Assembly: GCF_900116375.1 (NCBI RefSeq)
Contig: NZ_UETB01000010.1
Span: 1-64,000 of the forward strand
Direction: 5' to 3'
Length of the DNA: 64,000 nucleotides
DNA from: Georgenia satyanarayanai
GTDB taxonomy: Bacteria; Actinomycetota; Actinomycetes; Actinomycetales; Actinomycetaceae
In this document: piece by piece, positions 43,229 to 47,407 of the stretch
How positions within the stretch are numbered: position 1 is the stretch's first letter
Layout of the letters: each line of letters starts with the position of its first letter
Position numbers and translations under genes: made by a program
Notes under the pieces: generated by a model
What the model was told of the DNA's origin: nothing
The model's database searches: none
What the model saw: the letters and a program-made list of their open reading frames with translations, nothing else

Positions 43229-44659
43229 TCAGGCGACACGGTGGAGATCGAGGAGGTAGCGCTCGGCGGCACTGTCCGGGTCGGTGTCCGCCGGCTCTCG
43301 CTCGTCCGGTGGGGGTTGGCCGGGGAGGGCCGGCGCCCTGGAGCGGTAGCGGTGCCCGGTGGGGCTGGTGGTCTCGACGACGTGGCCGTCCTCGCCCCCG
43401 GGTGGCCCGGCCCTCGCGCGCCAGCCCGGTGCCTGCTTGGCGTAGTTGCACGCCTCGCAGTAGCCCTCCAGGCCGTCCGCCTCCGTCCTCCCGCCCTCGC
43501 TCCAGGGGACGACGTGGTCGACGTGCCGGACCGGCGCGTCGCACCACGGGGTGCGGCACGTCTGGTCCCGGGCGGCGATGAAGCGCGCCAGGCCGGGTGG
43601 CACGGTGCGGCGGCGGGAGTCCATCCGCACCAGCTGGCCGGTGGTCGGGGAGGTGAAGAGCCGGCGCAGCCACACACTGGTCGTGCGGGTGACGCCACGC
43701 AGGTCCGGCGTGCCGAGCCGGCGGGCCACCAGGCGCCGCGCCCAGCCGCCCGGGACGGTCCCGTACCCGGGGATGTGGGCGGGCTCCTCGTCGCCGGCGA
43801 GGAGCGTGCGCTCGGTCATGACGAGCTGCACCTCGACCGGCACGGCGTCCGCCGCCTCCTGGCCGGTGACCCGCTCGACGAGGGTGTCGGCCATGACCTG
43901 CCCGCGGCTGCGTGCGTCCCCCTGTGCGCGGGCGGAGTCCGCGGCCCTGCTGAGCGCGGCGAGCACCGCCACGCCCTGCGCGACGGGCAGCAGCCCGGTG
44001 AGGTAGCTCATCGTGTCGGGGGCGGGCCGCAGACTCACGCAGCGCTCCCCCTCGGCCTTGCGTGCCCGGCGGACCACCGAGGCGGCGTCCAGGCGGTAGG
44101 CGACCTTCTTGGCACGGGCGACCAGCTGCCGGTCCCCCAGACCCTCGAGCTGCGCCGGGTCTGCCGCCAGCTCGGCGTCGAAGGCGGTGCGGTCCTCGAT
44201 GGACAGGCAGGCCGACTCGCGGACAAGGAGGGTGGCCCGCCACTCGCTCAGCAGCCCGTCCTGCAGCGCCCGGTAGGTGTGGGGCATCTCGACGACGAGC
44301 GCCTTGGCGAGGCCGAGCAGCCGCCCACCGCGGTGCGGGGACTCCCGCCGCGCGAGCGCAACCTGCGCCCCGACGCCCGCGCCCCGCCGCGACAGCGGGA
44401 CACCGGCCCGCGCCTGCTCCGCGCGCTGGGAGGCGTCCAGGTCCACCGAGAGCCGGGCCTGCGCGGCGCACGCGGCCGACTTCAGCTCCTCCAGCGCCCG
44501 CAGCATGTCGACGCGCTCGGCGTCGCTCACTGCCCGGTCGACCTCGCCGAGCATCACCCGCCACGACTCGAGCGCCGCCACGGTGAGCGGACCCGACGGC
44601 ACGCTGCCGGCGGCGGTGGCTCCCCTGCCACCGTCCGGTGCTGCGCCGTCGTCGTCCAT
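43229..44659 (-). CDS. DUF222 / HNH endonuclease domain protein
   Basis: The protein, about 476 aa, has the long helical DUF222 region followed by an HNH nuclease: LARFIAARDQTCRTPWCDAP, VRHVDHVVPWSEGGRTEADG, LEGYCEACNYAKQAPGW. These are the zinc Cys pairs and His-Asn/Asp-His core. Such proteins are multicopy and very common in actinomycetes, and part of them are thought to be linked to the 13E12 repeat element. No activity is known. A start 10 codons earlier (44689, MSDPVCNVAH) is also possible. It follows the DUF429 gene on the same strand. Confidence 0.88.
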   Translation of the reverse strand: MDDDGAAPDGGRGATAAGSVPSGPLTVAALESWRVMLGEVDRAVSDAERVDMLRALEELKSAACAAQARLSVDLDASQRAEQARAGVPLSRRGAGVGAQVALARRESPHRGGRLLGLAKALVVEMPHTYRALQDGLLSEWRATLLVRESACLSIEDRTAFDAELAADPAQLEGLGDRQLVARAKKVAYRLDAASVVRRARKAEGERCVSLRPAPDTMSYLTGLLPVAQGVAVLAALSRAADSARAQGDARSRGQVMADTLVERVTGQEAADAVPVEVQLVMTERTLLAGDEEPAHIPGYGTVPGGWARRLVARRLGTPDLRGVTRTTSVWLRRLFTSPTTGQLVRMDSRRRTVPPGLARFIAARDQTCRTPWCDAPVRHVDHVVPWSEGGRTEADGLEGYCEACNYAKQAPGWRARAGPPGGEDGHVVETTSPTGHRYRSRAPALPGQPPPDEREPADTDPDSAAERYLLDLHRVA

Positions 44660-44717
44660 GTGAGCGACGTTACAGACGGGGTCTGACATTCGGCCGCGAC
44701 GGGTGCACAGCCGCTGC

Positions 44718-45902
44718 TCACCATGCGTGCGGCGACACCCGTAGCGTGATCCACGCACCGGCGGGCTCCCCGTCGCGCACCGGCCGCTTCGACGCGACGA
44801 TACGGTCGACGCGCACGTCGTCCGCCTGTCGGCGGCGGAAGGCGCCCGGCCGGGCACCGAGAACGTCGTCCAGTGCGTCGACGGTGCTCTTGACCAGGTT
44901 GTCGAGGTCCGGCTCGTTCCGCCCTCGCTGGTCTGCCCCGAGCCGGAACTCCAGCTCGACGGCGAGACGCCAGGGAGCAGGGACGCGGTGCGGGGCGAGC
45001 GCGCGGCGGACCGCGTCCTTCCACGCCCTCTCCAGCGTTCCACCAGCCCAGGCCGTGGGGCGGCCGACGACGTCGACGACGGCGACGGGGTCGTCATCAC
45101 GAGGCGCGACCGTCGTCACCGGCGCCGGAGGGGTCGGCCCAGGGGCCGCCGACGCCGCCTTCGTTGCCGCCACCCGCGGCGTCGCCGGATGCGTCGGCGC
45201 CGGCGGCGCGACGATGTACCCGCTGTCCGCGTCACCGAAGACGTGCAGCGCCTGCGGCTCGTGGTGCCACAGCCACGCCAGGTGCGCGCACATGACGGCG
45301 TCGACCTCGTCCTCGACGCGGTCGAGGTGCATCGGCCGGGTGGCCTCCTCGACGGCCTGCCGGACCTCGCGCCACCGGTCGTTCGCCAGCAGGCAGAGGA
45401 CCCCGATCCCCTCCATCCGGTCCAGCAGCTCGACCAGCGCCGCCCGCCGCCCGAGCACCGGACCGCTCTTGTACTTGAGGATCCGGCCCAGCCCGAACAG
45501 CCCGACCATGGCGGCGTGCGGGTACACCTCCACCGCCGCCGGCGCCGCGACGCTCCCCTGGTGCGAGGGGTCGGTCGCCCACCCGTGCCGCGCGGCGAGC
45601 GTCCACGCGCGCGGCGGGTCGAAGTACGGGATCGAGCGGTTGCTCGCGTGACAGCTCGCGTCGTACCGGCCGTACGCCCGCCCCACCAGCCGCTCGCACT
45701 CGCGCATGCCCGTGGCGTTGGGGACGACGAGCGGCGCGTCGATCGCCACGGTGAGGACAGGAGCCGGCAGGGCGCCGAGCCAGTCGTCGATCTCCGCGTC
45801 GGAGACCGCGCTCCCGGACGCGACGAGCGCGCCGGCGTCGTCCACCGCCGCCAGGCCGGTCCGGCGTCGGGTGTTCCAGGCGAGGTCGATGCCGATGTGC
45901 AC
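44718..45902 (-). CDS. Fusion of DUF429 (RNase H-like) and RusA-like resolvase domain
   Basis: The 394-aa frame joins two nuclease-like folds. Residues 1-240 are DUF429: [75 protein letters not shown], with Asp residues suited to an RNase H-like site. After a Pro/Ala linker (240-265) the rest resembles RusA Holliday junction resolvases: [20 protein letters not shown] (Asp332, Asp334, Lys338) and [13 protein letters not shown] (Asp361, Asp362, Lys372). That is the D-x-D-N...K...DD arrangement of RusA. The start is GTG 45902, divergent from selO. Its function is inferred only. Confidence 0.8.
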
Positions 45903-45952: not shown

Positions 45953-47407
45953 ATGAGCACCACCGCTCCCGCCGGCCACCTCCTCGGTGACCGCTTCGCC
46001 CGCGAGCTCCCCGAGCTCGCCGTCCCGTGGCAGGCAGTAGGGGTCCCGACACCCACGCTGCTCCTCCTCAACGAGCCGCTCGCCACCGAGCTCGGCCTCG
46101 ACCCCGAGGAGCTGCGCAGCCCGGAGGGCGTCGGCCTGCTCGTCGGCACCACCGTGCCCGACGGCGCCACGCCCGTCGCCATGGGCTACGCGGGCCACCA
46201 GTTCGGCTCCTACTCCCCCCGCCTCGGCGACGGTCGCGCCCTCCTGCTCGGCGAGCTCACCGGCACGAGCGGCGAGGCGCGCGACCTCCACCTCAAGGGC
46301 TCCGGCCCCACACCCTTCGCCCGGGGCGGTGACGGGCTCGCCGCCGTCGGCCCGATGCTGCGCGAGTACGTCGTCAGCGAGGCGATGCACGCGCTTGGCG
46401 TGCCCACCACCCGCTCCCTCGCCGTCGTCGCCACCGGCGCCACCGTGCGACGCGAGACGCTCCTGCCCGGCGCGGTCCTCGCCCGCGTCGCCGCCAGCCA
46501 CCTGCGCGTGGGCACCTTCCAGTACGCGCGCGCCACCGGCGACCTCGACCTGCTGCGCCGTCTCGCCGACCACGCGATCGCCCGCCACCATCCCCACGCC
46601 GCTGCGGCGGACAACCCCTACCTCGCGCTCGTCGAGGCGGTCATGGACGCGCAGGCCTCCCTCGTCGCCCGGTGGATGCTCGTCGGTTTCGTCCACGGCG
46701 TGATGAACACCGACAACATGACGATCTCCGGGGAGACCATCGACTACGGACCCTGCGCCTTCATGGAGGCCGTCGACCCGGAGACCGTCTTCAGCTCGAT
46801 CGACGCCCGCGGCCGCTACGCCTACGGGAACCAGCCGGTCATCGCGCAGTGGAACCTCGCTCGCCTCGCCGAGGCGCTCCTCCCCCTCGTCGACACCGAC
46901 GAGGACGAGGCGGTCCGTGTCCTCACCGACCTCGTCAACACCTTCCCCGCCCGGTACAGCGCCGCGTGGACGGCCGGCATGCGCGCCAAGCTCGGTCTCA
47001 CCGAGGACGACGACGGCGCGGAGCGGCTGGTCACCGACCTCACCGCGCTCCTCGTCGCCGCGCGCCCCGACCACACGACCTTCTTCCGTGCCCTCACCTC
47101 GGCGGCGCACGGTGACCCGGCGCCGGTGCGTGAGCTGCCCGGCTTCGACGCCCGGCTCGGGCGCTGGCTCGAGCAGTGGCGGGCGACGACCCCGGACGCG
47201 ACGCTCATGGAGCGCCACAACCCCGTCTACATCCCCCGCAACCACCTCCTCGAGGAGGCGCTGGACGCCGCCACCGCCGGGGACCTGGGCCCGGTCCGTG
47301 AGCTGCTCGAGGCCGTCACGCGCCCCTACGAGGAGCGACCCGGCCTGGAGCGCTACACCCTCCCGGCCCCTCCGGAGACGGCGTTCGTCACCTACTGCGG
47401 CACCTGA
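45953..47407 (+). CDS. selO: Protein adenylyltransferase SelO (YdiU), Cys form
   Basis: SelO is a pseudokinase-fold enzyme that transfers AMP to Ser, Thr or Tyr of proteins in redox stress. The 484-aa protein has [80 protein letters not shown] and the [10 protein letters not shown] Mg site. The C-terminus is TYCGT: the position that is selenocysteine in animal SelO is encoded by TGC Cys. The length is normal for bacteria. It is divergent from the DUF429-RusA gene and is followed 15 bases later by the exporter gene. Confidence 0.95.

Follow-up and report, generated by a model that had tools for sequence, protein, structure and literature searches.

As a resolvase, RusA is familiar chiefly from phages and prophages; it cleaves Holliday junctions as a dimer, and its active site combines an acidic triad (D70, D72 and D91) with a lysine (K76). 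DUF429 has been assigned to the RNase H-like superfamily, within the RuvC/RuvX resolvase clade, and carries conserved potential active-site residues (PMC3985635). Its published fusion partners are NUDIX, RelA/SpoT and phosphomethylpyrimidine kinase (PMC3985635, PMC3153485). The closest systems include RelZ from Mycobacterium smegmatis, whose DUF429 head has been reported to act as an RNase HII and to clear R-loops (PMC4429107, PMC7591505). Here, we describe a chromosomal protein that carries a RusA-family domain behind DUF429.

The window, i.e., the whole stretch of DNA that was analyzed, comprises 64,000 nucleotides of a Georgenia satyanarayanai contig (NZ_UETB01000010.1). The fusion gene forms an uninterrupted frame of 394 residues that runs from 45902 down to 44718, and it is present as a single copy in the genome. 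A preceding sequence-only reading had located a DUF429 domain fused to a RusA-like domain at 44718-45902, beside a DUF222-HNH gene and selO. These coordinates are correct and the strand is the minus strand; a plus-strand reading of the same interval is ruled out by a stop codon within its first residues. Both neighbors were recovered by Pfam as claimed. The third-position GC content (GC3) is of the coding type in both halves of the gene, with 0.97 for DUF429 and 0.86 for the tail. The features are as follows:

44718..45902, minus strand: duf429-rusA fusion gene, 394 aa, GTG start and TGA stop; open frame, with five further genomes of the sample holding full-length relatives.
45207..45902, minus strand: DUF429 (RNase H-like) domain, residues 1-232; Pfam PF04250, PADLOC PDC-S44 and invariant acidic residues.
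45093..45206, minus strand: Pro/Ala-rich linker, residues 233-270; predicted to be disordered at 247-263, where the full-length model falls to pLDDT <50.
44721..45092, minus strand: RusA-family tail, residues 271-394; Pfam and PHROG RusA matches, and a model whose best PDB matches are 1q8r and 2h8c (E. coli RusA).
44889..44909, minus strand: DLDNLVK motif (D332, D334, N335, K338); profile alignment to 1q8r, kept in 6/6 fusions.
44817..44822, minus strand: D361-D362, putative second pair of acidic residues in a RusA-type active site; unchanged in all tails aligned as well as in two RusA-like proteins from phages.
43229..44689 (start inferred from alignment), minus strand: DUF222 + HNH protein, the next gene downstream, 28 bp past the fusion stop; Pfam, common to the sister genomes.
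45953..47407, plus strand: selO, divergent neighbor; Pfam PF02696 with E=5e-105, same neighbor in the sister locus L004.

With the whole protein as query, the Pfam RusA profile (PF05866) matched residues 293-347 with E=8e-4, and the C-terminal part alone yielded E=1.6e-4, 0.1 bit below the gathering score. When whole genomes were searched, RusA exceeded the Pfam cut-off in G000 (the window's genome), G002, G275 and G196, and it also did so in copies of the tail that occur free of DUF429 (see below). The PHROG family of RusA-like resolvases, phrog_140, matched with E=4e-5. A profile built from six tails found two matches only in the PDB, both of them E. coli RusA (E=0.018 and 0.16). NCBIfam returned no match for the fusion protein, and neither did the PDB when searched with its full sequence. 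The AlphaFold2 model of the tail, obtained from eleven sequences, reached a mean pLDDT of 89. In Foldseek, its best seven PDB matches were all E. coli RusA (prob 1.00, best TM 0.61/0.72), while a search against viral models gave 60 matches at E<=0.001; many of these carry the name RusA, with E-values down to 1e-7. The full-length model (mean pLDDT 90) consists of two folded domains and a disordered linker at 247-263. The RusA-like structure of the tail, for which the sequence-only reading had suggested structure prediction and a fold search as a check, is thus borne out by both. Its claim of two such domains in one protein is likewise upheld by Pfam, PHROG, the structure match and the same fusion in other families; because the same residues also recur in those genomes, the match lies far above chance.

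In the profile alignment to 1q8r, D332, D334 and K338 line up with D70, D72 and K76 of E. coli RusA (D70-x-D72-N-x-x-K76), and we infer that D361-D362 are the equivalent of RusA D91. D332, D334, N335, K338, D361 and D362 are all present as previously numbered. Among the aligned fused and free tails, D332, D334, N335 and D361-D362 do not vary. Two distant RusA-like proteins from viral contigs (33-34% identity) were added for alignment and served as the outgroup of the tail tree. All six fusions retain K338, and so do the free copies with the sole exception of the one in G274, where it is exchanged for glutamate. A loss of the acidic residues in orthologues had been named as an outcome that would speak against a RusA assignment; instead, every aligned relative with the domain keeps them. 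Judged by these alignments, the presumed RusA active site is intact. This bears on the idea that the tail, as a degenerate relative of RusA or one with a structural role only, binds branched DNA to target the DUF429 nuclease and does no cutting of its own. The lower GC3 of the tail (0.86 against 0.97) could mean relaxed constraint or recent arrival, sister species manage without a tail, and the G274 free copy has lost the lysine. However, the fused tails are mostly ~40-55% identical to each other and nevertheless share all catalytic positions without exception, which is unexpected for a non-catalytic domain, and we consider a non-cutting tail improbable.

A second RusA-like family of ~240 aa was also observed (L060:1405-2169(-), L061:1411-2130(-), L063:1105-1824(+) and L085:8765-9295(-)). 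These proteins apparently comprise two RusA-like halves, with the D-x-D motif altered in one of them. The L085 copy has 176 aa and adjoins a PLD-SNF2 helicase gene, a kind known from defence loci, and the L063 copy adjoins a short gene that looks by eye like a PD-(D/E)XK nuclease.

The N-terminal half matches DUF429 (Pfam PF04250, E=2.7e-19) over residues 4-221, corresponding to profile positions 1-208 of 214, and the PADLOC candidate-defence model PDC-S44 over residues 2-240 (E=7.8e-80). D6, D55, E125, E197, D198 and D201 are invariant across 28 aligned DUF429 homologues with different tails, RelZ-type proteins included. Clade D of the RNase H-like superfamily is marked by acidic residues in the first and fourth strands. 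According to alignment and model, the invariant D6 ends the first strand (residues 2-6) and the likewise invariant E125 lies within the strand 122-126. A PDB fold search with the DUF429 half returned a weak similarity to RuvX (E about 0.2). As far as conservation tells, the presumed DUF429 active site is intact as well. Among the sampled genomes, DUF429 without a RusA tail is far commoner than the fusion, and the other partners found were RelA/SpoT (13 heads), a FitA-like ribbon-helix-helix domain and a MazG-like domain. In the DUF429 tree, the 13 RelA/SpoT-bearing heads form one clade, and the sister of this clade is the head of the G196 RusA fusion. The FitA-like domain was above cut-off in L027 (G438; E=9e-7) and weak in L026 (G311), and the MazG-like domain in L031 (G405; E=0.003) was below cut-off. 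In terms of its domain architectures, DUF429 is thus an exchangeable head with varying C-terminal partners.

Our sample comprised >1000 actinobacterial genomes in all, some of them sampled more than once. The full fusion was found in six: the window's genome and G002 (family f1), G275 and G236 (f14), G196 (f15) and G681 (f38), i.e., in four families. The G681 fusion belongs to another order, and the fusions therefore span at least two orders. Free tails, which lack DUF429, occur in G274, G571, G892, G1324 and G1287. The free tails of G1287 and G892 are 79% identical although they come from different classes, which suggests horizontal transfer of the free tail between classes. The G274 copy (L047:5955-7025(-)) joins the RusA-like tail, with its lysine-to-glutamate exchange, to ~190 aa of unknown sequence and adjoins a gene that appears by eye to be alpha/beta-hydrolase-like. 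We found no description of a DUF429-RusA fusion in the surveyed papers on DUF429, as judged by titles and the beginnings of abstracts, and RusA would be the first nuclease partner of DUF429 of which we are aware. From the sequences at hand, DUF429-RusA is a real and recurring architecture that we did not find described.

The window's own locus is ordinary chromosome with a conserved gene order (selO, hemH, hemQ-like) and no defence island. As the sequence-only reading had stated, the fusion lies outside a prophage: the gene order is shared with sister species and a tblastn search with the tail against 50,697 phage records returned no match, which together rule out a prophage origin at this locus. 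Plasmid homologues were of DUF429 only, with none of the free tail. In sister species, DUF429 proteins of 86% identity in this domain occupy the same site between selO and the DUF222-HNH gene and end without a tail; the fusion is thus patchy and not strictly conserved. The sister protein at L003 ends in VRVSPDAR and the window's tail in LRVSPHAW, with 21/24 nucleotides matching up to the same stop codon. This in-frame remnant of 24 bp was equaled by 0/500 shuffles, whereas the corresponding signal was weak in L004 (31/500) and in L002 (11/500, not at the corresponding place). Within the stretch matched by L003 lies the terminal part of the final RusA strand. Loss of the tail is therefore the simpler reading, and the L003 sister has probably lost it, while the lower GC3 of the tail (0.86) could instead point to its late arrival.

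In the DUF429 tree, the RusA label is scattered and needs five changes, and the tail tree intermixes free with fused copies on weak branches. A single clade of fused tails was rejected (AU test, p about 1e-5), as was a sister relationship of the window's and G002 tails (p 0.009), in tests that employed 121 columns with long branches and no strongly supported branches, and groupings picked after viewing the sequences. Subject to these 121 columns and weak branches, the AU tests reject a single vertical origin of the tail. Read from both trees, the module is one that was gained, lost or exchanged several times. The same data speak to a fortuitous origin, in which adjoining genes merged by loss of a stop codon and share no joint function. 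Such a merger would fit with the existence of the tail as a free gene, but the order and a similar spacing of the two domains recur in six genomes of four families, and the fused tails do not form one clade. We consider it highly improbable: being recurrent across families with tails that are not one clade, the DUF429-RusA pairing was made more than once or has long been kept.

The company of the tail in other genomes gives a different picture from the own locus. In G571, the free tail is part of one minus-strand run in the order hsdM, hsdS, a NucS-like nuclease gene, the rusA-like gene and hsdR, and the NucS-like nuclease matches the candidate-defence model PDC-S11. The order in G1324 is hsdM, hsdS, Mrr, rusA-like and hsdR. 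These type I restriction operons lie at L065:4358-11926 (G571) and L082:6611-14093 (G1324). Between the two, HsdR is 95% and HsdM 89% identical, compared with 30% for HsdS and 63% for the RusA-like protein, and the extra nucleases are unrelated, so that the RusA-like protein adjoins a different nuclease in each operon. The piece from hsdS through the nuclease to rusA looks like an exchanged nuclease cassette inside a type I system. In G1287, the neighborhood of the free tail includes a GmrSD gene and, at a distance of a few kb, an integrase. In G196, the fusion is followed 4 bp on by a gene for a DUF7669-DUF6884-GIY-YIG protein; next come genes for an unknown protein of 332 aa, an SMC-like ATPase and a small protein that appears HEPN-like by eye. 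This cluster (L050:9337-14777) resembles an undescribed defence operon. Such defence-type contexts are few, namely two related restriction operons, one GmrSD island and the G196 cluster. Nevertheless, the element-control role that had been suggested from the sequence gains indirect support from this adjacency to type I restriction, GmrSD and integrase, and the G196 nuclease and SMC-ATPase genes.

For the catalysis, substrates and biological role of the fusion, we infer the following. On balance, and by a small lean only, we favor an accessory bifunctional nuclease for hybrid or branched nucleic acid that is probably tied to conflict with foreign DNA. The DUF429 head, presumably RNase-H-like in fold and of the same kind as that of RelZ, would cut the RNA in RNA:DNA hybrids and R-loops. 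A flexible linker would connect it to the RusA-family domain, which would cut branched DNA such as four-way junctions through the acidic site of D332, D334 and D361-362. The enzyme would most likely bind structures that combine a hybrid and a branch, e.g. R-loops, stalled or reversed forks, and replication or recombination intermediates of invading DNA, where the RNA of the hybrid would be removed and the branched DNA cut at the same place. Still, two separate active sites need not share one substrate. RuvC is encoded in all genomes tested and RNase HII in 9/10, and the window's genome has both. A stand-in for a missing RuvC or RNase HII is thereby ruled out; the fusion is accessory, replaces neither and would act alongside both. 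Its main use would probably be the control of foreign or conflict-prone replication and not core recombination. This is the leading role because the distribution is patchy and the tail accompanies restriction systems, whereas the position of the gene among housekeeping genes and the absence of the tail from close sisters argue against it.

The main rival to a role against foreign DNA is a RelZ-like handling of replication-transcription conflicts. Here, the fusion would serve housekeeping repair as a RelZ analogue in which a resolvase replaces the alarmone synthetase: DUF429 would clear R-loop RNA and the RusA tail would cut the reversed fork or Holliday junction formed there, without mobile DNA as the target. 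Consistent with this, R-loops are a target of RelZ following UV stress (PMC7591505), the head of the G196 fusion is the sister of the RelZ clade, the own locus is syntenic and housekeeping, and the G002 fusion gene converges with a gene for a Mug-like uracil glycosylase, as named from its sequence. However, the occurrence is very patchy with close sisters that lost the tail, free tails occur in restriction operons, and RuvC and RNase HII are already present. We regard such a repair role as rather unlikely. A broader and tentative proposal, which we hold with less than even confidence, is that the chromosomal RusA subfamily represents a transferable junction-cutting effector of conflict systems. 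It would be partnered with various nucleases, either by fusion to DUF429 or within an operon (Mrr and NucS-like in the type I loci), and destroy branched intermediates of invading DNA. As the RusA half occurs elsewhere inside DNA-restriction operons, a role of the fusion in genome protection is possible, and the protein may represent a novel type of accessory enzyme for this purpose. If true, a chromosomal RusA joined to an R-loop-type nuclease and placed inside type I operons would make junction resolution a weapon or safeguard in host-element conflict. The fusion would also add a nuclease to the effectors borne by DUF429, and DUF429 as a general sensor or nuclease head becomes testable.

How does the protein compare with known systems? 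E. coli RusA (PF05866; PDB 1q8r and 2h8c) and the tail are alike in fold, in the D-x-D-N-x-x-K motif, in the second acidic pair and in domain size. In contrast to E. coli RusA, to which it is ~20% identical, the tail is fused behind DUF429 via a linker and is chromosomal, outside a prophage. It would represent a distinct RusA subfamily with a DD[11 protein letters not shown] signature. RelZ (MS_RHII-RSD, MSMEG_5849) shares with the fusion an N-terminal DUF429, a second enzymatic domain past a linker and an actinobacterial host, and the aligned RelZ-type proteins keep the same DUF429 acidic residues. It differs in that its second domain is a (p)ppGpp synthetase and not a nuclease, and in that RelZ-type heads form a clade of their own; Pfam finds no RelA/SpoT match in the fusion protein, whose tail is RusA. 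The DUF429 fusions to NUDIX and phosphomethylpyrimidine kinase (PMC3985635, PMC3153485) resemble it insofar as a DUF429 head takes differing C-terminal partners, but these partners act on nucleotides or metabolites, unlike RusA. Finally, the PADLOC phage-defence candidate PDC-S44 covers DUF429 only and marks DUF429 generally, without the RusA tail, under what is a candidate label.
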